From a virus, in IMG/VR virus record IMGVR_UViG_3300043434_000338, positions 1 to 39,976 of that record: 39,976 nt of DNA, one strand, 5' to 3'. Numbering within the stretch: position 1 is the stretch's first letter; each line of letters opens with the position of its first letter. The notes under the pieces were generated by a model that was not told the DNA's origin, made no database searches, and saw only the letters and a program-made list of their open reading frames with translations. The translations under genes and the position numbers were made by a program. This document shows, piece by piece, positions 1-25,625 of this stretch.

Positions 1-2959
1 CACTTGTTCCTGATGTTCCTGATGTTCCTGAGGTACCGTTAGAACCTGGTGTTCCATTTATACCCGAAGAACCATTAGTACCCGAAGAACCACTTGTCCC
101 TGATGTTCCACTTGTCCCGTTAGAACCTGGCGTTCCATTTATACCAGAAGAACCACTTGTTCCTGAAGTTCCGCTAGTCCCTGATGTTCCAGCCTTACCT
201 GAAGTTCCACTTGAACCATTAGTGCCTGAAGTACCATTTACACCTGATGAGCCACTAGTTCCTGAAGAACCGTCAGTTCCATTTATACCGTCAACACCTG
301 AAGAACCTGAAGTTCCACTTGAACCATTTGTCCCTGATGAACCACTTGTTCCTGAAGAACCATTTGTTCCTGAAGTTCCGCTTGTTCCTGATGTACCAGC
401 CTTACCTGAAGTTCCACTTGAACCATTTGTCCCTGATGAACCACTTGTTCCTGATGTTCCATTTATTCCTGAAGAACCTGATGTACCACTAGTCCCTGAA
501 GAACCTGATGTACCACTTGTTCCTGATGTTCCATTTATTCCTGAAGAACCTGATGTACCACTAGTCCCTGAAGAACCTGATGTACCACTTGTTCCTGATG
601 TTCCGTTTATTCCTGAAGAACCGCTAGTTCCTGATGTACCACTTGTTCCTGACGTACCCGCTTTACCTGAAGTCCCACTTGAACCGTTAGTTCCTGAAGA
701 ACCATTTGTTCCACTAGTACCTGACGTACCTGAAGAACCATTAGTACCTGAAGAACCATTAGTTCCACTTGTTCCTGAAGAACCGTTAGTTCCACTTGTT
801 CCTGATACTCCTGACGAACCACTAGTTCCTGACGAACCGTTAGTGCCCGATGAACCACTTGTTCCTGAAGTTCCGCTAGTCCCTGATGTTCCAGATTTAC
901 CTGAAGTACCACTTGAACCGTCAGTACCCGATGAACCGCTAGTTCCTGAAGAACCATCAGTCCCATTTATACCATCAACCCCTGATGAACCTGAAGTACC
1001 ACTAGTTCCTGATACTCCTGACGAACCTGAAGTTCCACTTGAACCGTTTGTTCCTGAAGTTCCGCTAGTCCCTGAAGTTCCCGCTTTACCTGATGTTCCA
1101 CTAGAACCATTTGTTCCTGACGAACCACTTGTACCTGACGTACCACTCGAACCGCTAGTTCCCGAAGAACCGTTTGTTCCTGAAGTACCACTAGAACCAT
1201 TAGTTCCAGAAGTTCCACTTGTTCCTGATACACCCGATGAACCACTTGTTCCTGACGTACCACTCGAACCGTTGGTACCACTTGAACCACTAGTACCCGA
1301 AGAACCGTTTGTTCCTGAAGTACCACTCGAACCGTTAGTACCTGATGAACCTGAAGTTCCACTAGTACCTGACGAACCTGAAGTTCCGCTAGTACCTGAA
1401 GTACCATTTATACCTGATGAACCGCTAGTTCCTGAAGAACCATCCGTTCCATTTATACCATCCACACCTGAAGAACCATTAGTACCTGATGAACCACTAG
1501 TCCCTGAAGAACCGTTTGTTCCTGAAGTACCGCTAGTTCCTGAAGTTCCCGCTTTACCTGACGTACCGCTTGAACCATTTGTTCCTGATGAACCATTTGT
1601 TCCTGATGAACCATTTGTTCCACTTGAACCACTAGTACCTGAAGTTCCTGAAGTACCGCTAGAACCATTTGTACCTGATGTTCCACTAGAACCATTTGTA
1701 CCTGACGTACCGCTAGTTCCTGAAGTTCCACTAGTACCCGAAACTCCTGAAGAACCTGATGTCCCACTTGTTCCTGAAACCCCTGAAGAACCGCTAGTCC
1801 CTGAAGACCCCGATGTTCCACTAGAACCGTTTGTACCTGACGTACCACTCGAACCATTTGTTCCTGAAGTTCCACTAGTACCCGAAACTCCTGAAGAACC
1901 TGATGTCCCACTTGTTCCTGAAACCCCTGAAGAACCGTCAGTACCATTTATACCATCAACACCTGATGAACCTGAAGTTCCACTTGAACCATTTGTCCCT
2001 GAAGTACCACTTGTTCCTGAAGACCCGTTTGTCCCTGAAGAACCATTTGTACCTGATGTTCCACTTGTCCCTGAAGAACCATTAGTACCACTTGTCCCTG
2101 AAGAACCATTAGTACCCGAAGAACCTGAAGTTCCACTTGTTCCTGATGAACCTGAAGTCCCACTTGAACCATTTGTTCCTGATGTTCCACTAGAACCATT
2201 TGTTCCTGATGTTCCACTTGTTCCTGAAGAACCTGAAGTCCCACTTGAACCTGATGTTCCGCTAGTTCCTGACGAACCGTTAGTACCTGACGAACCACTT
2301 GTACCTGAAGTACCGCTAGTTCCCGACACACCTGAAGAACCCGAAGTTCCACTAGTCCCTGAAACACCACTCGTACCTGAAGTACCATTTATACCTGATG
2401 AACCGCTAGTTCCTGAAGAACCATCCGTTCCATTTATACCATCCACACCTGAAGAACCTGAGGTTCCACTTGAACCATTTGTTCCTGAAGTACCTGATGT
2501 ACCACTAGAACCATTCGTACCTGAAGTTCCGCTTGTTCCTGAAGACCCATTCGTTCCTGATGAACCTGAAGTCCCTGAAGTTCCGCTTGTTCCTGATACA
2601 CCTGAAGTTCCGCTTGTTCCTGACGAACCACTTGTACCTGATGAACCACTTGTTCCACTCGACCCGTTTGTACCTGAGGTTCCACTTGTTCCTGAAGTAC
2701 CATTAACACCTGAAGAACCACTTGTACCTGAAGAACCCGAAGTTCCTGAAGAACCACTTGTTCCCGATGTTCCGCTAGTACCCGATACTCCTGATGAACC
2801 TGAAGTACCACTAGAACCATTGGTACCACTAGAACCGTTAGTACCTGAAGTTCCACTTGTTCCTGAAGAACCTGATGTTCCTGAAGAACCACTCGCACCT
2901 GAAGTACCACTTGTTCCTGAAGAACCGCTAGTACCAGATGAGCCTGAAGTTCCACCACC
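1..2959 (-). repeat. Collagen-like block A (distal, Lys-bearing)
   Basis: About 329 Gly-X-Y triplets in 9-base units, dominated by GTS and GSS. Lysine triplets (GKA or GKS) occur at 191-199, 398-406, 659-667, 893-901, 1082-1090 and 1550-1558. GVDGINGTDG motifs begin at 278, 962, 1448, 1943 and 2429, with spacings of 684, 486, 495 and 486, all multiples of 9. Near the left edge, roughly 33-70 and 119-155, a proline-containing variant GINGTPGSNG appears twice. I saw no GES triplets here. Confidence 0.9.
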
Positions 2960-5900
2960 AACGATTAAATAAGCCGAGAAATAACTTGTTGACCTATTAG
3001 AACCACCCTCAAGATTTCTACTTGTTGGGTCTCCATTATAACCCGTAAATTCAACATAATCAGTAGTCCCATTAAAATAAATTATTTTATTATTACCTTG
3101 TGAAACACCTGCAGATGTTGTTGTTTGATTTTGCCAAATGAATGTTTGATTCCCATTTTTACGGATTTGTGAATTATATTGATTGTTCGCTACCGTAGCT
3201 GTTTGCCAAAAAACTTCAAGTGTCACATTGTAGTAACCCGCTATTGTTGGTGTAAATCTATAAGTTGATACATCCCACCAATTATTAGGGTCAAAATCAT
3301 CAATAAATTGAATTATAGTATCAACATTTGAAGGAATTGATTGATTTGTCGATAAATAACCTTGTACAACATAGTCAGATGCAACCAATCCCGTTGGTGA
3401 GGTACCACTTGAACCTGAAGTCCCTGAGGAACCTGACGTTCCACTTGTTCCTGAAGAACCATTAGTTCCCGAAGTACCACTTGTACCTGAAGAACCATTA
3501 GTTCCTGATGAACCACTAGTTCCCGCAGAACCTGAAGTCCCACTTGAACCGTCGGTTCCATTTATACCATCAACTCCCGATGAACCACTAGTTCCCGCAG
3601 AACCTGAAGTCCCACTTGAACCATTTGTCCCTGAAGTTCCACTCGTACCTGATGTACCGTCACCTCCTGATGCACCATCTAAATTTGTTTCCCAAGTACA
3701 GTAATTACCTGAACCGTCAATTTCAGTTATCTGTAATGTTAAAGAACCTGTAGACGGATTATATGAAATCACATCACCGTGAAAGTGATTTGAATTGTCG
3801 TACGCAACAATTAAATGTTGGGCAATAGTATATGATAAACCTACACTTGTAGTTATTGTTATGTTAGTACCAACAACTAATGTCGATAAATCAATACAAT
3901 CTGTTGAATTTCCTATATAATCGGCACTTACCCCAGATGAACCTGAAGTTCCCGATGAACCGCTGGTTCCTGATGTTCCGCTAGTTCCTGATGTTCCGCT
4001 CGAACCTGAAGTTCCTGAAGAACCACTTGTTCCTGAAGAACCTGATGTACCACTTGAACCATTAGTTCCTGAGGTTCCACTTGTTCCTGAAGACCCACTT
4101 GTTCCTGAAGACCCATCAGTACCGCTTGAACCGCTAGTTCCACTCGAACCATCCGTTCCATTTATACCATCAACACCAGATGAACCACTTGTTCCCGCAG
4201 AACCTGATTCACCGCTAGTACCTGAAGAACCGTTTGTTCCTGACGTACCACTAGTACCTGAAGAACCACTTGTTCCTGAAGTACCACTTGAACCGTCAGT
4301 TCCCGAAGAGCCGCTTGTCCCACTCGAACCATCTGTCCCTGAAGTACCACTAGTACCTGAAGAACCATTTGTACCACTTGAACCGCTAGTCCCACTTGAA
4401 CCATTTGTTCCTGACGTACCGCTAGTTCCACTTGACCCATCAGTTCCTGAAGAACCGCTAACACCCGAAGAACCATCTGTACCATTTATACCATCAACAC
4501 CAGAAGAACCGCTAGTCCCACTCGAACCTGATTCTCCCGACGAACCTGAAGTCCCTGAAGAACCGTCAGTCCCTGAAGTACCACTTGACCCATCAGTTCC
4601 TGATGTACCACTTTCTCCAGAAGAACCATCAGTACCCGAAGAACCTGATGTCCCACTAGAACCGTCAGTTCCTGATGAACCACTTGTCCCTGAAGAACCA
4701 TTAGTACCTGAAGTACCTGAAGAACCACTTGTTCCAGCAGAACCTGATTCTCCTGACGAACCTGATGTTCCTGAAGAACCGTCAGTCCCATTTATACCAT
4801 CAACGCCTGAAGACCCTGAAGTCCCCGATGTTCCACTCTCTCCTGAAGAACCACTTGTTCCGCTTGAACCTGAAGTCCCTGATGTACCGCTCGAACCTGA
4901 AGTTCCTGAAGAACCGCTTGTTCCACTTGAACCTGAAGTTCCTGATGTACCTGAAGTTCCTGAAGTGCCACTAGTACCTGAAGAACCATTTGTCCCTGAA
5001 GTACCACTTGTTCCAGATGTACCTGAAGAACCGTTTGTTCCTGAAGTACCACTAGTTCCCGATTCTCCCGATGAACCGCTAGTTCCTGAAGAACCATCCG
5101 TTCCATTTATACCGTCAACTCCTGAAGAGCCACTTGTTCCTGATGTACCTGATTCTCCGCTACTTCCCGAAGTACCGCTTGAACCATCAGTACCATTAAC
5201 TCCACTTAATCCTGAAGAACCGCTAGTACCCGATGTACCACTTTCACCTGAAGTCCCTGAAGAACCACTAGTCCCCGAAGAACCATTTGTTCCTGAAGAA
5301 CCATTTGTTCCTGAAGAACCATTTGTTCCTGAAGTTCCTGATGTTCCACTAGTTCCCGATTCTCCTGATGAACCTGATGTTCCTGAAGAACCATCCGTTC
5401 CATTTATACCGTCAACTCCTGAAGACCCACTCGTTCCAGATGAACCTGATTCTCCACTACTTCCCGAAGTACCTGATGAACCGTTAACACCTGATGAACC
5501 GCTAGTCCCCGAAGAACCGTCAGTACCTGAAGAACCATTTGTACCAGATGAACCATCAGTACCCGATGAACCATCAGTACCTGAAGTACCGCTTGAACCT
5601 GATGTTCCTGAAGAACCGTTAGTTCCCGAAGTACCACTTGTACCTGAAGAACCATTAGTACCTGAAGTACCACTAATACCTGATGAACCTGATGTTCCAC
5701 TTGAACCATCTGTTCCATTTATACCATCAACACCTGAAGACCCTGAAGTCCCTGATGTACCACTTTCTCCCGATGAACCCGATGTTCCTGATGAACCGTC
5801 AATACCTGATGTTCCTGATGAACCGTCAATACCTGATGTTCCTGATGAACCGTCAATACCTGATGTTCCTGAAGTACCTGAAATACCACTAGTACCCGAC

Positions 5901-6949
5901 GTACCACTTGAACCTGAAGTCCCTGAAGAACCGTTAGTCCCTGAAGTACCACTTGTCCCTGAAGTACCACTTGTCCCTGAAGAACCATCCGTCCCTGAAG
6001 AACCATCCGTCCCTGACGTTCCTGAAATACCACTAGTTCCCGATGAACCTGAAGTTCCCGATGTACCGCTCGAACCATTTGTACCTGAAGTTCCACTTGA
6101 ACCTGAAGTTCCTGAAGAACCACTAGTACCTGATGAACCATTAATCCCCGACGAACCTGATGTCCCTGAAGAACCACTAGTACCTGATGTACCTGAATTA
6201 GTCGCAGTAATACCCGTTATTATAATGGTATCACCAATATTATTATATAAATGAATCTCAGATGATGCAGAAAAATAAGTACCACCCGTAACATTTATGT
6301 CAGTCATTCCTGTAATACTAACTGTATTACCTGAATTATCGTATAATTCAATATAGTTGTTGATACCCGAAGCACCTGTAAAGAAAGTTCCTCCCGTGAT
6401 GTAGGTATCATTTAAATCGGCTATTCTCCAACGAGCGTCGTTATGAGTAACACCTCCAACGCCTTCAATAGTTGACGCAGTCCAAGCGTTAAGGAATAAC
6501 TCTCCTTGGGGGGTGTCATTAAAACACATATAACCTGTCGAGACTTCCGTTAGAGAGCCCGCGGTTTCCGCATTGTTAAAAAGTGTAGTATAATCAGGTA
6601 TTACATATTGATATGTTAAATCAGTTTCGTGAACATAAACTAACATACCCAATCTTCTTCTACCTGAAGATATACCGTCATTATATAATCTTATTTCATT
6701 AGATGTTCCATATGGGACATTATAACTGAAATTAATTGGGATACTATTACCTGAATACTCAACGGCACCACCATTAATTAAAACGTCATTAGGTATTGTC
6801 CAAATTAAATCTGAAAGGTTGTAAACTTCCATATATCCACCGATACTGTCTACACTGAAATTAGTACCTTCAACGTTAGCTCTATCTACGGATATTGGAC
6901 CGAAAACAACATTAGCAGAAACTGGATTTTTATAATCAAAACTCATCAT
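1..6949 (-). CDS. Giant collagen-like tail fibre protein, 3' end outside the window
   Basis: An uninterrupted minus-strand frame runs from an ATG-ATG pair at 6949/6946 to the left edge, at least 2316 codons with no stop seen. I translated the N-terminal 250 residues and both non-repeat insertions. Repeat landmarks spread along the gene all fall in one register, so I see no frameshift. Residues 1-250 form a non-repeat head with two similar beta-type units (ITGGTFF... and VTGGTYF..., each followed by a LYxNxG segment), probably the attachment or trimerisation part. The rest is about 610 Gly-X-Y triplets, mostly GTS and GSS, interrupted twice by small folded modules. Collagen-like Gly-Ser/Thr-Ser shafts are known in phage fibres, where they form long trimeric rods. 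It starts 13 bases after the preceding gene and is probably co-transcribed. The C-terminal receptor-binding tip is not visible. Phage collagen-like fibre is secure; the exact position on the virion is inferred. Confidence 0.9.
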   Translation of the reverse strand, partial: MMSFDYKNPVSANVVFGPISVDRANVEGTNFSVDSIGGYMEVYNLSDLIWTIPNDVLINGGAVEYSGNSIPINFSYNVPYGTSNEIRLYNDGISSGRRRLGMLVYVHETDLTYQYVIPDYTTLFNNAETAGSLTEVSTGYMCFNDTPQGELFLNAWTASTIEGVGGVTHNDARWRIADLNDTYITGGTFFTGASGINNYIELYDNSGNTVSITGMTDINVTGGTYFSASSEIHLYNNIGDTIIITGITATNSGTSGTSGSSGTSGSSGINGSSGTSGSSGTSGSSGTSGTNGSSGTSGTSGSSGTSGISGTSGTDGSSGTDGSSGTSGTSGTSGTSGTNGSSGTSGSSGTSGTSGISGTSGTSGIDGSSGTSGIDGSSGTSGIDGSSGTSGSSGESGTSGTSGSSGVDGINGTDGSSGTSGSSGISGTSGTNGSSGTSGTSGTNGSSGTSGSSGTSGTDGSSGTDGSSGTNGSSGTDGSSGTSGSSGVNGSSGTSGSSGESGSSGTSGSSGVDGINGTDGSSGTSGSSGESGTSGTSGTSGTNGSSGTNGSSGTNGSSGTSGSSGTSGESGTSGTSGSSGLSGVNGTDGSSGTSGSSGESGTSGTSGSSGVDGINGTDGSSGTSGSSGESGTSGTSGTNGSSGTSGTSGTSGTNGSSGTSGTSGTSGTSGTSGSSGTSGSSGTSGSSGTSGTSGSSGTSGSSGESGTSGTSGSSGVDGINGTDGSSGTSGSSGESGSAGTSGSSGTSGTNGSSGTSGSSGTDGSSGTSGSSGTDGSSGESGTSGTDGSSGTSGTDGSSGTSGSSGESGSSGTSGSSGVDGINGTDGSSGVSGSSGTDGSSGTSGTSGTNGSSGTSGSSGTNGSSGTSGTSGTDGSSGTSGSSGTDGSSGTSGTSGSSGTSGTSGTNGSSGTSGESGSAGTSGSSGVDGINGTDGSSGTSGSSGTDGSSGTSGSSGTSGTSGTNGSSGTSGSSGTSGSSGTSGSSGTSGTSGTSGTSGSSGTSGSSGVSADYIGNSTDCIDLSTLVVGTNITITTSVGLSYTIAQHLIVAYDNSNHFHGDVISYNPSTGSLTLQITEIDGSGNYCTWETNLDGASGGDGTSGTSGTSGTNGSSGTSGSAGTSGSSGVDGINGTDGSSGTSGSAGTSGSSGTNGSSGTSGTSGTNGSSGTSGTSGSSGTSGSSGTSPTGLVASDYVVQGYLSTNQSIPSNVDTIIQFIDDFDPNNWWDVSTYRFTPTIAGYYNVTLEVFWQTATVANNQYNSQIRKNGNQTFIWQNQTTTSAGVSQGNNKIIYFNGTTDYVEFTGYNGDPTSRNLEGGSNRSTSYFSAYLIVGGGTSGSSGTSGSSGTSGTSGASGSSGTSGSSGTSGTSGTNGSSGTNGSSGTSGSSGVSGTSGTSGTSGSSGTSGSSGTSGSSGVNGTSGTSGTSGTNGSSGTSGSSGTSGSSGTSGTSGVSGTSGTSGTSGSSGTNGSSGTSGTSGTNGSSGTSGTSGTNGSSGTSGSSGVDGINGTDGSSGTSGSSGINGTSGTSGVSGTSGTSGSSGVSGTSGTSGTSGSSGTNGSSGTSGTSGSSGTSGSSGTSGTSGTNGSSGTSGTNGSSGTSGSSGTSGTSGSSGTNGSSGTSGTNGSSGTSGTSGTNGSSGTNGSSGTSGTSGTNGSSGTSGSSGVDGINGTDGSSGVSGTSGTSGSSGVSGTSGTSGTNGSSGTSGTNGSSGTSGSSGTSGSSGVSGTSGTSGSSGVSGTSGTSGTSGTSGTNGSSGTSGTNGSSGTSGTSGTSGSSGTNGSSGTNGSSGTNGSSGTSGKAGTSGTSGTSGTNGSSGTSGSSGTNGSSGVDGINGTDGSSGTSGSSGINGTSGTSGTSGSSGTSGTSGSSGTNGSSGTSGTNGSSGTSGSSGTNGSSGTSGTSGSSGVSGTSGTSGTNGSSGTSGTNGSSGTSGSSGTSGTSGSSGTNGSSGTSGKAGTSGTSGTSGTNGSSGTSGSSGVSGTSGTSGSSGVDGINGTDGSSGTSGSSGTDGSSGTSGKSGTSGTSGTSGTSGSSGTNGSSGTSGSSGVSGTSGTNGSSGTSGTNGSSGTNGSSGTSGTSGTNGSSGTNGSSGTSGKAGTSGTSGTSGTSGSSGINGTSGTSGTSGSSGTSGTSGSSGINGTSGTSGTSGSSGTSGTSGSSGINGTSGTSGSSGTNGSSGTSGKAGTSGTSGTSGTNGSSGTSGSSGTNGSSGTSGSSGVDGINGTDGSSGTSGSSGVNGTSGTNGSSGTSGKAGTSGTSGTSGTSGSSGINGTPGSNGTSGTSGTSGSSGTNGSSGINGTPGSNGTSGTSGTSGTS
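2960..3403 (-). other. Non-collagen module between shaft blocks A and B
   Basis: About 148 residues of ordinary, non-repeat sequence inside the fibre frame. The translated stretch includes VVQGYLSTNQSI, a WWDV segment, AGYYNVTLEVFWQ and FNGTTDYVEFTGYNGD, ending in GGGTSG where the collagen repeats resume. The alternating hydrophobic pattern and aromatic residues suggest a small beta-sandwich domain, probably a branch or kink point in the shaft. No family is recognised with confidence. Confidence 0.7.
3404..3675 (-). repeat. Collagen-like block B (short)
   Basis: About 30 Gly-X-Y triplets between the two folded modules, with one GVDGINGTDG motif starting at 3557. It contains GTAG-type and GSS/GTS triplets and runs out through GASGGDGTSG, the usual boundary of the neighbouring module. 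Confidence 0.85.
3676..3931 (-). other. Non-collagen module between shaft blocks B and C
   Basis: About 85 residues reading SADYIGNSTDCIDL, TITTSVGLSYTIAQHL, VAYDNSNHFHGDVISY, NPSTGSLTLQITEI, then GSGNYCTWETNLDGASG. As I recall, modules with this FxGxVxSYNPxTGxL pattern followed by a WxxNLDGASG exit into collagen repeats occur in other phage fibre proteins. It is probably a small beta domain that caps and re-registers the collagen trimer. Two cysteines are present. Confidence 0.7.
3932..6193 (-). repeat. Collagen-like block C (proximal, Glu-bearing)
   Basis: About 251 Gly-X-Y triplets following the N-terminal head. GVDGINGTDG motifs begin at 4157, 4481, 4787, 5102, 5399 and 5714, with spacings of 324, 306, 315, 297 and 315, all multiples of 9. 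Acidic GES triplets recur between about 4200 and 5770 (near 4205, 4530, 4617, 4747, 4839, 5060, 5152, 5229, 5357, 5448 and 5763). The lysine triplets of block A are not seen here. Confidence 0.9.
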
Positions 6950-6962
6950 ATTATTAAATATC

Positions 6963-7898
6963 TTACGGTATTAAACTTCCTCCTCGGAAATATAAATTAT
7001 TATTAAAATTCTTTATTTTAAAGTCACCAATTGTATATGTCGAATACACTCTATAAGTACCTGCAGGTATTGCAGTACCTGTATAATTAACAATGAAACT
7101 AGAGTATGTACTATTCATAGTAAAGTAAGTTAAAGAACCTGGGCTATTTGATTCACCAATTGTCGCATATTTTTGTCCATTTGTCGCCCCTGTTGGAACA
7201 AACCAAGTATACCAACAAGACTCATTAGGGTCCATAACTGTATTAGGGACTTCGTGAGTTAAGAATCTATACGCAACTATTGGATTACCTTCAGAATCGA
7301 ATCCTCCCGAAGATGTTGGTACTTGTTCACTTCTAATTGATGGTACACCTAAACTACCCCATCCTGTATAATTTAAGTAAGCATTCATCTGATTATTAAA
7401 TGTTGATGAGGCAACCGAAGGGGAATTAATATTATAACCTCTAAACGCACTTCCTTGAGATACCATCCAAGTGTTAAATGAAGTTCTTGCACTATATGGT
7501 TCAATAGTTAAATAAGCGTAGAATGAAGGTGTTGCGGTTGGTGTCGGTGTTGGTGTTTGAGTCGGAGTTTGGGTCGGTGTTGGTGTTGGAGTCGGAGTAC
7601 CTGTAGGTTCTGGTGTTGGAGTTGGTGGTGGAGTTGCAGTAGGTGTTGGAGTTGCGGTAGGTGTAGGGGTAGGTGTAGGTTCGGTACAAGGTGCGATTAT
7701 AAATGTTTCACAATTAAGTGAGTCAATAACTTTAATCATAACCGCAGGGGCACTATTATACATTGCAGGTAAAACCACAGTATACGGCATTGTTGTTGTG
7801 GACCCAACATAGCTACAACTAGCACCAAGCACATTACACACATATACTTGATATGGTGATGTTCCTGTTATACTTGTAATAGTTATTGATGACCCCAC
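6963..7898 (-). CDS. Thr/Pro-linker virion protein with SprB-like N-terminal module
   Basis: 311 residues starting at GTG 7898, the only start available because an in-frame TAA lies two codons upstream. Residues 1-72 (ITSITGTSPYQVYVC then SLNC) resemble a truncated SprB-type beta repeat like those of the upstream gene. Residues 73-124 are a Thr-Pro-rich linker. Residues 125-311 form a distinct domain of unknown fold, rich in Tyr, Ser and Asn, containing EVPNTVMDPNESCWYTWF and IPAGTYRVYSTYTIGDF. The architecture suggests an adhesin or fibre-tip subunit. It lies between the SprB-repeat fibre gene and the collagen fibre gene, with a candidate promoter motif 36 bases upstream. Function in host binding is inferred from position and architecture only. 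Confidence 0.75.
   Translation of the reverse strand: MGSSITITSITGTSPYQVYVCNVLGASCSYVGSTTTMPYTVVLPAMYNSAPAVMIKVIDSLNCETFIIAPCTEPTPTPTPTATPTPTATPPPTPTPEPTGTPTPTPTPTQTPTQTPTPTPTATPSFYAYLTIEPYSARTSFNTWMVSQGSAFRGYNINSPSVASSTFNNQMNAYLNYTGWGSLGVPSIRSEQVPTSSGGFDSEGNPIVAYRFLTHEVPNTVMDPNESCWYTWFVPTGATNGQKYATIGESNSPGSLTYFTMNSTYSSFIVNYTGTAIPAGTYRVYSTYTIGDFKIKNFNNNLYFRGGSLIP
7527..7682 (-). repeat. Thr-Pro-rich linker repeat
   Basis: 52 residues of [18 protein letters not shown] low-complexity sequence (residues 73-124 of the host gene), built from 6-base units. It is probably an extended flexible spacer between two folded domains. Confidence 0.9.
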
Positions 7899-8029: not shown

Positions 8030-10663
8030 TTAAATACAACATTGTACAGGTATTGTTGACCCACAAGTAGCCGCAGTTACATTGTATTGTTCAGGGCCAT
8101 TTGTTAATGATAAAACTTGGTAAGCACAAGTAACACAAGGAACTCTGTCTAAATTAACAAATTCTCCAATACTTAACTGATTTATATATCTAACTACATA
8201 AACATCACCACCAATTGCCCCTGTTTCACAATCAATAACCTCTTGAACGTTGTAATAGTAATATGTTTCCGTTGGTGTAGGTGTTTGAGTTGGAGTTGTC
8301 GTAGGTGTTGGGGTCGGTGTTTGAGTTGGAGTTGCCGTAGGTGTTTGAGTCGGTGTTGGACTCGGTGTAGGTGTTGGAGTTACCGTAGGAGTTTGAGTTG
8401 GTGTAGGAGTTTGAGTTGGCGTAGGTGTTTGAGTCGGCGTTGGAGTTACCGTAGGAGTTTGAGTCGGTATAGGAGTTTGAGTCGGTGTTGGGGTTTGAGT
8501 TGGCGTAGGTGTTGGCGTAGGTGTTGAGTAATCGTCACAACAGAATCCATAATCTATCATTAATCTAATTATAACGTCCTTATCCGATAAGGCCTTTAAA
8601 CAATCAGTACTTAACTGAATTGTATTTGATTCGGTATTAATTATGATAGAACCAATACCAGGTATACTATCTAATAGATTTCGTAACGCGGTAACGTATT
8701 GGGTATCTGTTGGGTAATCCAAAATTCCAACTGAATTATAAAATTCACTAGTATAACCTGTACCCCCAACATCTAACAATATAGTAAATGTTGCGGCGGT
8801 TAATGAACATCCCGTTTCTCCCGAAGTTAGAACTTCATAACCATCATTTAACATTTGTCTTAAACCTTGTTCAGTACCACTATTCTCAATAAATTCACTA
8901 TCACAGACATTAAATAATGAATATGTCGAATTATTAGAACTACAACTTACTGAAATTGTCTTGTTTGCAACACATCCGTCAGAATCGGTTAAAATTAAAC
9001 TATACGTTCCCGCAGTCAATCCCGTTATAAACATACCCGTTTGAGAACCAACATTTGAGGACCAACCAAAAGTATATGGTGGTTTACCTCCTGTAATTAA
9101 GGCAGTAACTGTACCCTCATTACCGTTCCCACAAGAAGTACTAGTTAAAGTAAACGCGGTCTTGGTCGATGATGGAATAATAAAACTTGTTTTTATTGTA
9201 CACGATTCACTATCAGGGTCCGCATCACTAACTAATGCGTTATAAAAACCTGCAGGTAGATTGGTAAATGTTGCCGTTTGGCTTGTACTATTTGCAATTA
9301 TTTGACTACCGACCTGGTAGGTGTAAATACCTGGAGTGTCCACATAAACAGTAACCGACCCATTTTGATTTCCACAGGTAGTTGCAATTGGGTTCACGTT
9401 AACCGCATATGGTTGTACGTTCTCAATAACCACTGTTTTAGTGTAAGTACAAATCCCACCCTGAGTTGTCATTGTTACGGTATAAGTACCTGAACTTAAA
9501 TTATTAAAAACCGCACTAGGAGATGTGTTCTGAGTATTAAGTACAGTACCGTTAGAATCTAATAATTCAAAAATATATGGCGTTTGTCCACCCCCACCTG
9601 ATATAGTTATTGACCCACTACCGTTTGAACAGGTTGAGTTTTTAACAACTACGTTAGTTGATGTGAATGAGTTAGGTGTTAAAATAGTAGTACTACCTGA
9701 AACAACACATAGTGATGCGTCTGTAACTATAACGGTGTATGTCCCCGCAACTAAGTTATTATATGTATAAGTTCTACTTCCATCAATATCATTTTCACCA
9801 TTTGAAAATTGATAATAAAATGGTGGTGTACCACCAGATAAATTAACAATAATTTGTCCATTATTATCAAAACAAGTTGGGGATGTGTTAACAAAGTTAA
9901 TAATCCCTAATCTAGTTGCCGCGGATACCACAACACTTTTAGTTATTGAACAATTATTGGCATCTGTAACAGTAACGGAATACGACCCACCTGACAAACC
10001 TGTTAATGAGGGTTGATTTATCGGGCTACTACTCCACTGATATGTGTAAGGAGAGGTACCAGTTAAACCTGTCACATATATCGCACCAGTATTACCTTGG
10101 GTACACGCGGAATCATCAATAGTATATAAACCAAATGTGAATTTACCTGAATCAGTAATAACACAAGTGCCTGTAGAACCTGAACAACCACCATCGTCTG
10201 TGGCAATAACATAATAAATACCCGATGGTAATGAATCAAAAATTTGAACGTCATCAGCAATTGAAGTACTGATAAGGGTACTATTTAATCCCGACAACTG
10301 ATATAAGTCGTAAGTTACTGGATAATTTTGTGTTGTAGCAGTTACGGATAACATACCATTACTTCCTTCACAACTCGCTTCAGTTACTGTCTCTAAACTA
10401 AGACATAGTCCTGTCGAAATCCAAAGATTTACATAAATCTCATCATTTGGCGGGGTATTTGAGTCATTTATTCTTATTTGATATAAACCTCCACTAAGTC
10501 CTGTTCTAGTTGAGTCGTCACCATCGTACACTAAAGTATCAACACCTAAATTTGGGTTATACCAATCGATAGTATATGGTTCGACACCGTCAATAGGGAA
10601 TATTTGGATTGAACCATCACCCAAACCATTACAGTCCCCATTTACAATTGCATTATAAAACAT
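8030..10663 (-). CDS. Fibre/adhesin protein with tandem SprB-type repeats
   Basis: 877 residues. About seven tandem beta repeats of 75-95 residues fill roughly residues 1-570. Each has an early Cys, a [15 protein letters not shown] segment, then LxxGxYxVxVTDxxxC. This is the SprB repeat pattern known from the Flavobacterium gliding adhesin SprB and other Bacteroidota surface proteins. Next come a unique domain with Cys pairs, an 88-residue Thr-Pro-rich linker (about residues 713-800) and a 77-residue Cys-rich C-terminus with CVTC and QCCI. The ATG at 10663 overlaps the preceding stop codon as TAATG. No signal peptide is visible, consistent with a virion protein and not a secreted one. It is probably a tail fibre that contacts the host surface. 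The repeat assignment is by pattern; binding function is inferred. Confidence 0.82.
8264..8528 (-). repeat. Thr-Pro-rich linker repeat
   Basis: About 88 residues of [14 protein letters not shown] and TPSPTP units separating the unique domain from the Cys-rich C-terminus. The same kind of linker occurs in the next gene at 7527-7682, so the two proteins share modular design. Confidence 0.9.
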
Positions 10664-13647
10664 TAATTACACTTAATTGAAAAGTTTATTCCGACATTTA
10701 ACTCAAATGTCTTATCATTAAATTTAGGGTCACATCCTAAATTATAAATAACAAATTTACTTTCACTCGTACTTTCGTCCAACGTAAATCCAAGACCTTG
10801 TTCTAATAGTATGTCAGGTAAATATGTAGTTATCGTATTTAACCATTGTGCTGGTGATGGCACATCTCCTATTCCAAACCCGTTATAAAACATAACTTTC
10901 ATTATTTGATTACCACCTAATTTAACATCAACATACCAATCAGACACGATTGACTGTTCAGAACAAGTGGTAAATGTTTCACCTATGGATATCAAATAGT
11001 TATTGATTGTTTGGTATAGTACATCACCGAATGAAGTAACAGTACTTTGTCCATTATCCCAAGGATATACATAACAAGTAACTTTTTCCTCACTACAATT
11101 ATATGGGAATATATTACCATTAATACTACAAGGGTCACAAGGTAAAGGTACAATTTCACAACCTCTTTGTAATCTATACACGAATTTTTGTCTATGGAAG
11201 ATTGAGTTTTCAAACTTAGACCCCGCCATCCATAAAGTGGATGCTGGTATCATTTGTTCAACTAATCTCACCCAATAATCACCTAAACCATTAATATAAT
11301 TAATCATTGTCTGATAATTAAAATTATCGTTAGGGATATTAACCGCAGATTCGGATTGTTGATATTTCCACCAAATAGATTGTAACGTAGGGTATCCCCC
11401 TGTTTTACCATCAGAAATAAACTGTCTATTTCGAGTATTAATCATATTACTCCAAAACGTTTGAGCGAATTCAAAAAAGGTCTTCTTACTTGGTTTAGGA
11501 TTGATAAACGTCCAATCAACTCCTCCAGGTTGTGGATATGGTGTTGTTAGACCTGTACTAGGAATTGGGTAGTCGTATTTAGTCGACATTGTCCAAACAT
11601 CATATAACAATCCTTGGGCGGGGTTCATAAATAAATCAATGTTCTTAACATTAATTACTAACTTCTCATTATTAACAAAGTAATATGCGTTATAATTTGA
11701 CCTACCACCACTAACCCTTAATCCAACGTCATTAATTGGCCAACTCTTTTTATTATCAATAGTTCTAACTATTTTAAAACCTTCACTCATATATGGGAAA
11801 GTTCTATATCTTTCTAAATATTTTTGACCGTAAGTGAACGGTTCAAAGTATGTTTGAATATTAAAATTTTGCCCCGTAAATACACTAGTCGTCCTATTAA
11901 CCTGTTGAATACTTTGGTGACTCTCAACCAATTCAAACCAACCAGCGCCTTTTTGAAAGAAATAATTTTCATTATTCGATAATGAAGAAGGATAACCTTC
12001 AGAATCTATAGGATAGTCATCAAGTGTTGCATTGGCATCTTCAATATTTTTTTGACTTGTAAACCCTGTGTATTTAATACCTTTAATTGAGAAAGTGGTC
12101 CCACTATCATATGATGGTAAGTCCTGTGAATAAGTTCCACCTGAAATATAGGAATATTGTCTTTCAAAATCCCCCATATTAATCTTCTGTCCCGCAACAT
12201 AAATATTCTCATTAAATTCAACTAACGCTTCAGGAGCCCCAACCAATCTAAGCATAAATTCAATAGATTTTCGAGTACCTTTAGACTTGAATAAGTAAGC
12301 GGCATTCAATATTAAATTTCTATAAAATTGATAATTCAACTCTGTTGGAGTATTGGCTCTTGAGAAACCAGGGTATTGTATTTTACTATCATTACCAAAT
12401 ACAGATTCTAAGAAACTATCGTTAGTGATTGGTGAAACATTAATTTTCCAACCGACTGTCTCCGCAAGGTTTTTAAGTAGTTGGGAAGGAATGTCGTTAC
12501 CAACATTATAATTTACGGAATTCATAAACGACAAGGTGTCAATGAATTTTTTAACCTCATCAAAACTTCTACCATATACGTTCAATATTTTCTGAACTTT
12601 TTGGTCTTCCGTGTCAAAATCTTTAAAGGCTTGTGTTGTTAAAAATCTAGTAACTAAATTAGTTCTAAATGAGTCAAACGAATCTGCAATATCACTAACA
12701 GTTGCTAAGTAAAAATCAAAAGCCTCGGTTGCAATATCTAAATTCCAAACACCATTTAATGGCCAAGTTACTCTTTGGTTATCCGTAAACAGTAAACCAT
12801 CTTCCGTTTGTCTTGGAACTTGAAAAACCGCAGTATACTGAGGAACTATCAATCTATTTAATAAAAATTTCTCAACCTCATCAAATGGTTCCAATAATGA
12901 CTTATCGGTATAAAAACTATTGGGTCTAATAACTAAGTACTCTGTACTTGTTGTATTATCACCAAATGGTTTACCAAGAATTGTCACAGTTAAAATACCA
13001 CTATATAAACTTTGGGTTGGTTGGATGTAAACTACAGGATATTCTTTATCCCCAATAAATAACGAATATTTTGTGTATTCAGTCGTTAAATTTCTTAATG
13101 GTGAAACTTGATATTCTAATAATGAAATATTTCTTGTTGAATTTATACTAAAATCAACCCCAAATGGGTTTCTTGTTTTAGCAATATTAATGTCAAATGT
13201 CGTATGGTTTTCAAGTATATCATAAACCGCGTTAGTTGCCGTATTACCTGTAGATGAATCGTAATTTATTGGTGATACCTCTAAAGCACCTGGAAAAAAG
13301 TTTATAATTTTTTGTATGGATGTTGACATCCTTTTAGATAAAGGTCCGTATAGAGTAAATCTTGAAACCTCCGATAAATCAAAATTAGGATAAACTCTAA
13401 AATCTTTAGCAATAATTGCTTTAGATTCTAAAATATTACCAATGTTTAAACTATCCAAAGATATCGGTTCTGAAAACGCACCAATATTAAAGTTTCTATT
13501 AACTTTCTCAACTACCGATGTTGTGAATTCAAAATTACCCTGCGTCAAACCTCCACCGTCAACAATTTGTAAACCTACAATGTTGTCGGAGAAAGTTCCA
13601 GCTCCGCTAGAGGGTCTCGGGGGATATCTATAAAATCTTTTTGCCAT
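10663..13647 (-). CDS. P2 gpI-like tail/baseplate protein, enlarged
   Basis: 994 residues. Around residues 380-480 it has [11 protein letters not shown] and, further on, [20 protein letters not shown] followed by a proposed fold end at APEALVEF. This is the pattern I associate with the phage tail protein I family (P2 gpI, baseplate periphery), although this protein is several times longer than P2 gpI. The N-terminal third (starting [12 protein letters not shown]) and the C-terminal third, which has a Cys cluster ([11 protein letters not shown] then NCSEEKVTC), are not recognised. It lies downstream of gp25- and gp6-like genes and directly upstream of a fibre gene, the same relative order as W-J-I-H in P2, which supports the call. 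Start and stop overlap neighbours as TAATG at both ends, suggesting translational coupling. Confidence 0.6.
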
Positions 13648-14602: not shown

Positions 14603-15715
14603 TTATAGATTTTCTTGTTTTATAAAATTAAAAAATCCATATCCATAGTTTTCAAGGTCTCCAATGTTATCAACCTCACCCAATCTTTCAATTCGTTCTA
14701 AAGCACTGTTCTTCCCTCGTTCAATAAAAACGTCGGACTGAACTTCTGGTTGATAGACGATATTCATTAATGACTCATCTTTCACAATCGGTTCTTGAAC
14801 CATCCATTCAGGAATCAAACCACTACTATAGGTTAAGTACGATGTTGTTCCATCAATAAAATCAAGATACTGAGTATCTTGTATTGTATAACCCGTATAT
14901 GTTGGTGTCATCGCACTTATCACACCAAAAAACTGATTATTTTTATCCTTTATAATTTTATTAAGAACATAAGGGTTTTTACCATAAGATTGTAGTTCAG
15001 TTATTCTAGACTCCGTATTACCCGTAATTAAGAAAGGTGTAGAGGTATAGTTACTTGAGACTTGGGAAACTATGTTGTTCTCGGAATCACCTGTAAAAAT
15101 ATAATCATAGGATATTGGAGTAGCACTCCAAGAACCAACGTTTGATGTAAAATAAGCGGTGCCCTTAGGATTATCTATTGTAGTACCTGTAAATGGAACC
15201 ACCACAGTTTTTTTAACGGTATTAACACCCCAAGGATTTTTTTGTGTTAAAGTTATTGTATACGTCCCATTATTAATATAATCGTGATAAATGTAATTTG
15301 GTGATAACGTTGTGATTGTTTGACCACTTACACCATCACCCCAATCAACTTCAAATGTTGAAAACTTTAAATAATTTTTAAACTTTTGGTCTGACGTATT
15401 ATAGAAATAATATCTCTTAGGTGAAACTGTTTGAGCCGAGAAAACAAAATTCTTCACAACATCAGATTGTAGTAAGTTACCATCAAATATTGAATATAAC
15501 CCGACATCAACTGCGGTCTCGGTTATCATAATAGGAATTGTTAACCCCGTTAATAATGAATCTCCATTAGTCCCTCCCGAAAGAACTTGACTCATACCTG
15601 AATAAACATATGTACACCCACTCGAGTATGTATCACCACTTGGGTAACATATGTTGAATATATCACCCCCAATAACTTCAGGTGAAATTTTAATATAATA
15701 TCTATCTTCGTTCAT
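14603..15715 (-). CDS. Virion protein with PKD-like domain (370 aa)
   Basis: 370 residues. A PKD-type beta domain is visible at about residues 115-175: FEVDWGDGVSGQTITTLSP leads to YIYHDYINNGTYTITLTQ and KKTVVVP, carrying the typical WGDG, YxHxYxxxGTYTITLT pattern. PKD domains are extracellular Ig-like folds that mediate protein or sugar contacts. The C-terminus has a distinctive segment, QSDVFIERGKNSALERIERL, followed by GEVDNIGDLENYGYGFF, which looks like a conserved virion assembly motif, although I cannot name the family. The ATG overlaps the previous stop as TAATG at 15715. It is followed by a 47-base gap with a promoter candidate. Probable role: baseplate or fibre scaffold. Confidence 0.72.
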   Translation of the reverse strand: MNEDRYYIKISPEVIGGDIFNICYPSGDTYSSGCTYVYSGMSQVLSGGTNGDSLLTGLTIPIMITETAVDVGLYSIFDGNLLQSDVVKNFVFSAQTVSPKRYYFYNTSDQKFKNYLKFSTFEVDWGDGVSGQTITTLSPNYIYHDYINNGTYTITLTQKNPWGVNTVKKTVVVPFTGTTIDNPKGTAYFTSNVGSWSATPISYDYIFTGDSENNIVSQVSSNYTSTPFLITGNTESRITELQSYGKNPYVLNKIIKDKNNQFFGVISAMTPTYTGYTIQDTQYLDFIDGTTSYLTYSSGLIPEWMVQEPIVKDESLMNIVYQPEVQSDVFIERGKNSALERIERLGEVDNIGDLENYGYGFFNFIKQENL

Positions 15716-23319: not shown

Positions 23320-25161
23320 TTAGCTAATTGATACGGTTTGGAAATTCTTAACCTTAACCGTAATATCCTTATTTGGATATCTAATTTGATAGATTTGAGT
23401 TGGGAGTGCAAAGATAGTATTGTCGGTAGGTTCTATCTGTTTTGTAGAAGAATCCGCGTATTTCATTGAAGTTTCTGAAGATGAATATTCTCCCCCAACT
23501 TTATTAAACACTTTTAATTCAGTTAACGATATCACTCCATTCTCAGATTGAATTATTTTATTAATTTCAGATATATTAACGTTACCCCCTAATTGTCTTG
23601 TTGACGGATTAAAATAATCCGAAATCTTATTAATTATCGTACCAACAACAACCCCTTGATTTTGACTTGCATCCAACACAACTGACGCCTCAACGGCTAA
23701 ATCAATTACATCCGCAGTTTCAATTGAAATGTAGTCGTTTATCATACGATAGTTTGAAAGATACTCAGCAAGATTATTTAATAACGTATTTGAAACTATA
23801 GATGTTAAAGCACCTGAAGTATCGTATGACAATATCTTAACTCTAATTTTATTATCTTCCTCAACAACAGAGACTTTAGCAGGTGCACCAAATTGTCCTG
23901 GCATTTTTCTAATCAAAGCTTCATAATCATTAATCGTAACTGCTCTATTTTGTGCCGAGAAGTTAAACGATACAAAATTTCTTATTTCTTCTAACGTAGG
24001 TAATCCCGCTCCCCCAATTGCCGCAGTTACGTTAGTACATCTTAATGAATTAACCACCGCAGTATTTGTCGATTCTGAAGGTCCGTTTACAAAGAACGAA
24101 ACCGTACCAATCTGATTGATAGTATTAACTCCGATATTGGTACCTAATCCACCACCAATTCTATATTGTACAAAGATTGTGGTGTTTGCTTTTAACGTAC
24201 TACCTAATGAAAAATTATTTAAATAATTCTGCATCGGTAAAGTCTCAATTCCACTTCTCGCAAATTCCCTCAATTGGTCTTCCGCCGATGTGTTACCCCC
24301 ACCAAACGTCATCTTTAAAAATCCTTCAGGTGTGTATTCAGTTATAAATCTGTCATTAGTAACAACCCATTGTCCAACTTTAACTCCAGGTAAATCAGTT
24401 GGTTTCGTCGAATCCTCGATGAATACCCTATCTTGAGCTAAGGCATCAACTTCATACCATTTCCCAGCAGGTGATAAAAACTCAGACACCGTAGGTACGT
24501 TAGCGTAGTTAGTACCATCTTTCTGTATAACTGATGTAACACCTAACACATTCTTTTCTGGTAAGAACAACTCAAAAAACGGTCTAACGTCATTGGCGGT
24601 TATAACTTGTTTGAATACTTTGGTAATACCATTAACTACTAATTCTCTTTTAGTTATTGTATAACTAATTAAATTGTTGTTACCATCGAAGTTAGGTATT
24701 TTAAGTCGGTTTGGGAAACCTTGTGAGTTATATGGTGATGAAAAATCAATATCGTATACGTTTTCAAAAATTTGTCCCACACCCGTAACTTGACTTCCTC
24801 TTCTTAATATACCTTCATATCTCTCATCATCCTTATCACCATTTGCAGGTACCGTAATTGAGAAGTCGACTAAAGCAACTGAAGGTCTTTGACCTGGAAG
24901 TTTTAATCCATAAGTTCTCGCGATGTTAAATATTGAAGATTTTTGTTGGGCGTATTGTAAAACTGTTTCTTGAACACTTCTATCAATATGGAAGTGTAAG
25001 TTGTCAGATACGGCAGCATTTAAATCTAATAAAGCCGAGAAAATAGACGCGTCGTTAAAATTATCTATTAACTCAGGATAATAGGTTTTTGTGAAATTTA
25101 TTAATTCCGTTCTAACTTCTTGGAAGTCCCTTACGGTATAGGATATTCTTTTTTCTGCCAT
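23320..25161 (-). CDS. 6: gp6-like (baseplate J family) baseplate wedge protein
   Basis: 613 residues, close to T4 gp6 (660). The N-terminus reads YTVRDFQEVRTELINFTKTY, followed by DASIFSALLDLNAAVSDNL and ERYEGILRRGSQVTG. This is the arrangement of T4 gp6 and the P2 gpJ-like baseplate family, whose dimers form the inner ring of the baseplate around the hub. Residues near 400-450 (NFSAQNRAVTINDYEALIRK, then MPGQFGAPAKVSVVEEDNKI) match the typical NRAVTxxDYexl-ark-pgv region of J-family proteins. It starts 5 bases after the gp25 stop, the usual W-J pairing, and no membrane or signal sequence is present. Wedge assignment is strong; structural detail is from the family. Confidence 0.9.
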   Translation of the reverse strand: MAEKRISYTVRDFQEVRTELINFTKTYYPELIDNFNDASIFSALLDLNAAVSDNLHFHIDRSVQETVLQYAQQKSSIFNIARTYGLKLPGQRPSVALVDFSITVPANGDKDDERYEGILRRGSQVTGVGQIFENVYDIDFSSPYNSQGFPNRLKIPNFDGNNNLISYTITKRELVVNGITKVFKQVITANDVRPFFELFLPEKNVLGVTSVIQKDGTNYANVPTVSEFLSPAGKWYEVDALAQDRVFIEDSTKPTDLPGVKVGQWVVTNDRFITEYTPEGFLKMTFGGGNTSAEDQLREFARSGIETLPMQNYLNNFSLGSTLKANTTIFVQYRIGGGLGTNIGVNTINQIGTVSFFVNGPSESTNTAVVNSLRCTNVTAAIGGAGLPTLEEIRNFVSFNFSAQNRAVTINDYEALIRKMPGQFGAPAKVSVVEEDNKIRVKILSYDTSGALTSIVSNTLLNNLAEYLSNYRMINDYISIETADVIDLAVEASVVLDASQNQGVVVGTIINKISDYFNPSTRQLGGNVNISEINKIIQSENGVISLTELKVFNKVGGEYSSSETSMKYADSSTKQIEPTDNTIFALPTQIYQIRYPNKDITVKVKNFQTVSIS

Positions 25162-25166
25162 ATTAA

Positions 25167-25625
25167 TTAAATATTTAAGATTACGAAATCTTTACTACTA
25201 AAGACATCGTCGGTTATTACGTAATCTATTTTAACCTTAGCGGTGTATTCATCGGCACCCATACCTGGCATATTATACTCAGTAGTATTACTACCTGAAC
25301 TTACACCACCACTTTCTGTCTCTTCACTAACATAAGCTTTGACACTAATACTAGTAATTCTTAATTGAGGTAAATACTTTTCACACGACTCTCGAATCTC
25401 AGATTCAATACTGTTAAATGTTGGAGTATCTAGTGGTTCGAAAATATACTCATATAATCGAGTTCCAAAATCTGGCAAAAAATATCTAGACCCTTTTCTT
25501 GTAAGAAGTAGGTGAATTAAATCTGTCCTTATCTCATCGTTAGCAGTTTGAGTTAATTTCAGATAGTCTCCTTCAGTAGAACTGTTGAAGGGGAATGCAA
25601 TCCCATATGTTTTACCATTTGCCAT
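25167..25625 (-). CDS. 25: gp25/GPW-family baseplate wedge protein
   Basis: 152 residues, slightly longer than T4 gp25 (132). It carries the family signature: YLKLTQTANDEIRTDLIHLL followed by LTRKGSRYFLPDFGTRLYEY and a central IFEPLD, with the later YLPQLRITSISVKA strand. gp25 lies at the inner baseplate and helps nucleate sheath assembly; its lysozyme-like activity reported for T4 is not supported by any motif here. An insertion of Ser/Gly/Glu residues (about 103-120) lies before the last strands. It is the first gene after the terminator of the DNA-metabolism block and follows a candidate promoter motif 28 bases upstream, so it probably opens the structural operon. The upstream region is AT-rich with no Shine-Dalgarno sequence. 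Confidence 0.93.
   Translation of the reverse strand: MANGKTYGIAFPFNSSTEGDYLKLTQTANDEIRTDLIHLLLTRKGSRYFLPDFGTRLYEYIFEPLDTPTFNSIESEIRESCEKYLPQLRITSISVKAYVSEETESGGVSSGSNTTEYNMPGMGADEYTAKVKIDYVITDDVFSSKDFVILNI

Follow-up and report, generated by a model that had tools for sequence, protein, structure and literature searches.

Many Bacteroidota surface proteins contain SprB repeats, and the repeats do not by themselves mark a gliding adhesin. Members of this family (Pfam PF13573), among them SprB of Flavobacterium johnsoniae and GhpA, the grappling hook of Aureispira (PDB 9flp), form tandem Ig-like chains, and their bacterial arrays vary widely in repeat number. Tandem Ig-like domains of a different, Bacteroidota-associated family, the BACON repeats, are likewise found in a crAssphage structural protein (PMC6949934), and Ig-like profiles recur in Hoc-like decoration proteins (phrog_2973 and others) and in Ig-like phage adhesins (PMC13370021). 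The Far-T4 phages, a group that includes Rhodothermus phage RM378 and contigs from Lake Pavin, are reported to be common across aquatic habitats, and little is known of their hosts or of the machinery by which they contact them (PMC4360716, PMC7198788); RM378 is the Far-T4 isolate, and a marine Far-T4 phage was predicted to infect Bacteroidetes (PMC7198788). We found no report of SprB repeats in phage structural proteins in the open-licence literature.

Here we describe a stretch of viral DNA of 39,976 nucleotides (IMG/VR record IMGVR_UViG_3300043434_000338; hereafter the window) that encodes such repeats. Its SprB-type protein is of the same repeat family as the bacterial proteins by profile and is predicted to form a similar Ig-like tandem chain, but it differs from them in having exactly seven non-interchangeable repeats, no sorting domain above cut-off, and a domain (X) common to a second protein encoded in the baseplate cluster. 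For the crAssphage BACON repeats, neither a paralogous domain pair of this kind nor a constant baseplate-gene neighbor is described in the available portion of PMC6949934. Although similar to Hoc-like proteins and Ig-like adhesins in profile, the protein differs from these in genome position, in its seven fixed copies and in domain X. The phages that encode it resemble Far-T4 phages in the capsid protein of a 192-kb relative and, for LR756508, Microcystis phage Mel-JY01 and Flavobacterium phage immuto, in gp6, but SprB repeats were found nowhere in the records of these three phages or of RM378.

Results

The seven-repeat protein and its predicted fold

The gene of interest (8030..10663, minus strand) encodes 877 aa, and its start codon shares 1 nt with the preceding stop codon (TAATG). 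The initial annotation, made from the sequence alone, had proposed seven tandem SprB-type repeats with an Ig-like fold in a phage fibre protein, and our analysis confirmed the repeats and supports the fold; the outcome that it named as a refutation, a missing SprB hit together with an unrelated predicted fold, did not occur. PF13573 matched the ORF with 87.9 bits (gathering threshold 28; E 3.2e-25) over 5 stretches, and a scan of the whole 39,976-base record confined SprB to this ORF; the same profile scan found none in 14 control genomes. With borders set by hand and by a profile built from the repeats themselves, seven repeats of 77-88 aa each span residues 1-584 (nt 10663-8912, minus strand): repeat 1 (10409..10663, residues 1-85), repeat 2 (10145..10408, residues 86-173), repeat 3 (9914..10144, residues 174-250), repeat 4 (9671..9913, residues 251-331), repeat 5 (9416..9670, residues 332-416), repeat 6 (9164..9415, residues 417-500) and repeat 7 (8912..9163, residues 501-584). 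Repeats 2-7 each possess a conserved Cys pair, and repeat 1 a single conserved Cys. The ORF opens directly in repeat 1, which by the repeat profile begins at residue 3 and would thus leave no room for an N-terminal signal peptide. Pfam matches to Y_Y_Y and GBD_IRG7_N overlap repeat 5 and were taken as Ig-like cross-matches. Likewise, matches to the type IX sorting domains TIGR04183 (17.9 bits against a cut-off of 23; residues 353-413, inside repeat 5) and PF18962 (18.1 bits) were rejected as internal and below cut-off, and TIGR04131 did not match the protein.

Three further parts of the ORF had gone unmentioned in the initial annotation, all on the minus strand: domain X (8528..8902, about residues 588-712), with a helix-strand-strand-helix-three-strand order and a Cys pair at 619/709; a Thr/Pro-rich linker (8270..8524, residues 714-798), which is absent from the common family form of about 711 aa; and a Cys-rich C-terminal module of 79 aa (8033..8269, residues 799-877), a variable accessory part. 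Modules of this kind, about 75 residues long and Cys-rich on T/P linkers, occur at the N- or C-terminus of the protein (L028 11952-14420, L024 11955-15170 and window 8033-8269). Judged by sequence, the module looks like a swapped accessory part, perhaps with a receptor-binding role.

An AlphaFold2 monomer model of residues 1-732, built with 39 sequences (mean pLDDT 83.9), predicts consecutive beta-sandwich domains (pLDDT about 80-94) followed by a mixed alpha/beta domain; its pTM of 0.37 does not fix how the domains are placed relative to one another, which is what a flexible chain would give. GhpA was the best match in the PDB by both routes, at E 3.9e-6 with the family profile and at E 9.9e-19 with Foldseek, where pieces of GhpA came ahead of other tandem Ig-like chains. 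The PDB matches of the family profile also include a putative phage neck-whisker protein (9occ, E 2.2e-5) and the phage decoration proteins 5lxk/8zvi.

Gene neighborhood in the window

The upstream partner gene (10663..13647, minus strand) encodes a conserved protein of 994 aa belonging to the baseplate cluster. On the same strand lie genes for a gp6-like baseplate wedge protein (Baseplate_J; 23320..25161) and the baseplate wedge protein gp25 (25167..25625), which bears out the phage tail setting given in the initial annotation, and farther upstream are those for ribonucleotide reductase and for DnaB-like helicase, UvsX-like and gp32-like proteins. Together these genes indicate a T4-type phage. 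Gliding genes (spr/gld) were not seen in this record.

Other ORFs of the window were also noted. A 370-aa baseplate-cluster protein (14603-15715, minus strand) gave a weak PKD-domain match of 19.1 bits, below cut-off. Downstream of the seven-repeat gene, a 311-aa ORF (6963-7898, minus strand) combines an SprB-like N-terminal stretch (GTSPYQVYVCN), a T/P-rich linker resembling that of the seven-repeat protein and a C-terminal domain; its start is GTG, with a stop codon two codons upstream. It is followed by an open-ended ORF of at least 2316 aa (2-6949, minus strand), which consists largely of collagen-like GTSG/SSGTSG repeats with a few folded inserts and runs off the record. Similar collagen-like ORFs lie 3' of the seven-repeat gene in several relatives, and the long ORFs on the opposite strand (3-2972, 4965-6254) arise as by-products of the GTSG repeats.

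Domain X and the 994-aa partner protein

The C-terminal domain of the 994-aa protein (X'; 10666..11046, minus strand, residues 868-994) is homologous to domain X. In a single hhalign comparison X and X' aligned with a probability of 97.2% (E 2.9e-11), whereas 14 control blocks of the two proteins reached at most 2.6%; run against the 994-aa homologues one at a time, the X profile picks out the C-terminus in most. The models of X and X' have the same element order (H-E-E-H-E-E-E), and both contain the Cys pair. By profile and model comparison, then, X duplicates the C-terminal end of the 994-aa protein. In 53 of 75 loci the seven-repeat gene starts on the final base of the preceding gene's stop codon. 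Mean identity is 41-54% for the seven-repeat protein compared to 63.5% for the 994-aa core, a greater variability that would be expected of an exposed part.

Pfam, PHROG, PDB profile and Foldseek searches with the 994-aa protein gave no match over threshold, and the model of this protein is poor except at residues about 103-330 and 873-990. Distant relatives of 1265-1404 aa occur in immuto, Mel-JY01 and LR756508 (E 5e-4, 8e-9 and 7e-3, respectively), but they align only to other parts of the protein, the C-terminus excluded, and domain X was absent from these three phages in the stretch examined. Since X and the SprB repeats are missing together from these three records, X, X' and the seven-repeat protein look like one joint innovation.

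Repeat number is constant across the family

Searching with the 994-aa protein yielded 30 viral contigs, and every complete next gene in these first loci encoded seven repeats. A search of IMG/VR with the repeat region found at least 481 contigs with the family; among the best 80 of these relatives, all complete arrays held seven repeats, followed by X and preceded by a 994-aa homologue. Because this sample had been picked by the repeats, we drew another in a second search that used only the 994-aa protein, with a diverged member in the lead. Among the best 80 of at least 576 relatives, all 66 complete downstream genes encoded exactly seven repeats plus an X of about 120 aa, and the remaining loci were cut by a contig end. 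These 66 genes number 46 clusters when grouped at 95% identity, 34 when grouped at 80% and 15 when grouped at 60%, and it is these cluster counts rather than contig counts that give the sample size; the relatives are all uncultured contigs. The bacterial SprB ORFs found held 3-36 repeats, some being cut by locus ends.

The commonest form of the family, about 711 aa long, consists of the repeats and X only. Extra modules are at the C-terminus in the window (the T/P linker and Cys-rich module), and similar-looking modules are at the N-terminus in some other phages. Two contigs of 317 kb (L262) and 321 kb (L263) carry both genes, extending the family to jumbo-phage sizes.

Among 50,697 phage records, clear SprB-type arrays were present in two metagenomic huge phages only, and in no isolated phage; a third case, a 4-kb fecal fragment, was weak. 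In the huge phage LR756502.1 (642 kb; L041 10714-15726), a protein of 1670 aa holds about 14 SprB-type repeats; neither domain X nor a 994-aa neighbor was found in the stretch examined. LR745206.1 (635 kb) matches part of this protein.

Individuality and ancestry of the repeats

Between nine diverged phages, the best hit of a repeat carried the same repeat number in 470 of 504 cases. Tandem copying within one phage was rejected, as same-index scores between phages greatly exceeded those of different repeats within a phage. The initial annotation had suggested a phylogeny against bacterial SprB repeats; in that comparison the phage repeats form index clades apart from the bacterial repeats. In this tree of 306 rows (84 phage, 210 bacterial and 12 huge-phage repeats) and 74 columns, repeats 2, 4 and 7 each form one clade, repeats 1, 3 and 5 need two changes, and repeat 6 needs five; 8 phage/host changes occur overall. 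For the four of the window's seven repeats that were listed, the nearest rows are same-index repeats of other phages. That the array keeps seven repeats, in the same order and in index clades, across highly diverged phages marks it as old and locked. These comparisons exclude recent capture for this phage: the array has long belonged to phages rather than having been taken lately from a bacterial gliding adhesin. The phage repeats likely descend from Bacteroidota repeats at depth, a view drawn from a tree of 74 columns only.

Lineage and probable host

The window record is incomplete and shows no recognised capsid gene; gp23 in particular was not seen. Among annotated phages, the gp23 of the 192-kb relative comes closest to those of LR756508, Mel-JY01, immuto and RM378, and the gp6 of the window matches LR756508, Mel-JY01 and immuto. 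Based on sequence, the capsid matches of the larger relative would place the group near the Far-T4 phages, and immuto would count as Far-T4-like by its capsid and gp6 matches.

The link to Bacteroidota drawn in the initial annotation held up, in that immuto is among the nearest isolates by capsid and 78 of 79 cellular loci found with repeat 3 lie in genomes labelled Bacteroidota or members thereof, the other being labelled 'uncultured bacterium'. A peptide-pattern scan of bacterial genomes, which detects close relatives only, found no relative of the window's repeats, and a search of 395 genomes of a Bacteroidota genome's phylum, run without a positive control, gave no match to the 994-aa protein. 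The host phylum is probably Bacteroidota; we do not state this more firmly because one near phage infects a cyanobacterium.

Discussion

We regard it as rather probable that the seven-repeat protein is a baseplate-docked, fixed-length Ig-like virion arm of Far-T4-like phages. The occurrence of seven repeats plus X in 66 of 66 complete genes, the index clades, the homology of X and X', the synteny and the setting in a baseplate cluster support this reading. Repeats, number, order, synteny and duplication of X are observations and the fold is a model, while virion location, docking, oligomeric state, ligand and host are what we infer. The gene is probably co-translated with that of the 994-aa baseplate-cluster protein, and X probably packs against its paralogue X', fixing the arm to the baseplate, though paralogy does not prove binding. 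If each domain spans about 4 nm, as is usual for Ig domains, the seven would add up to a rod whose length is constant at roughly 25-30 nm; to judge by the conserved Cys pairs, disulfides probably stiffen it after release from the cell. Such a rod would hold the parts that contact the receptor at a defined distance from the baseplate; these may be the Cys-rich module that the T/P linker joins to the chain in the window, and separate downstream genes or an N-terminal module elsewhere. Because the core is extended at one end in some phages and at the other in others, either end may point outward. Against the arm reading we count the Hoc-like naming in PHROG and, for the 994-aa protein, the lack of a match above threshold and the poor model. 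A wider claim is tentative, and we offer it as a possibility: that these proteins represent a new class of tail appendage, a seven-domain 'ruler' arm anchored by X/X' that arose once in a large Far-T4-like branch from Bacteroidota-type adhesin repeats and was held at seven while bacterial arrays vary.

The main rival to the arm reading is that the SprB-type repeats are themselves adhesive, binding glycans weakly on the host surface, capsule or particles, as Hoc- or BACON-like proteins might, with seven copies providing avidity. The nearest solved proteins, GhpA and the putative neck-whisker protein, are consistent with this, and PMC6949934 and PMC13370021 tie tandem Ig-like repeats of phages to carbohydrate binding and epithelial adherence. 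Yet avidity needs no exact seven, as the range among bacterial ORFs illustrates, and the phage repeats are individually specialised with no ligand site identified; we consider the proposal unlikely as a replacement for a docked arm, although it is compatible with one and both may hold. Less likely still is a Hoc-like head or neck decoration protein. PHROG profiles would favor it, with phrog_2973 matching at E 1.6e-13 and Hoc-like profiles matching 20 of 39 family members, as would 5lxk/8zvi and 9occ in the PDB. These PHROG matches cover part of the repeats, however, and may reflect Ig-like similarity alone, whereas a baseplate-cluster gene adjoins in all loci and a domain is common to both products.

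The initial annotation had raised a connection with gliding, in which the phage could mimic a host adhesin, bind the adhesin's partners or carry captured host repeats. Beyond the SprB family itself and the likely Bacteroidota host, nothing we found speaks for a mimic of a gliding adhesin that binds or rides the gliding/type IX machinery: a sorting domain above cut-off and, in this record of a virus with gp25, gp6, gp32-like, ribonucleotide reductase and UvsX-like proteins, the gliding genes were not seen, SprB repeats are not particular to gliding, and the phage index clades stand apart from bacterial repeats. We consider it very improbable. Recent capture of host repeats by this phage, to which only the repeat family in common with Bacteroidota would point, is the least credible of these explanations and is contradicted by the presence of the same array in phages whose proteins are only 32-52% identical, by the same-index neighbors of the window's repeats in the tree, and by the result of the bacterial peptide-pattern scan within its range of close relatives.

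Present in no fewer than 481 contigs and linked to a baseplate-cluster gene, the putative arm is a signature protein that may serve as a marker for this Far-T4-like branch. Its Bacteroidota-typical repeat type yields a testable guess at the host and makes the protein a concrete candidate for a host-contact arm, and its array, locked at seven, provides a clear case of repeat number held constant against the usual drift in copy number.
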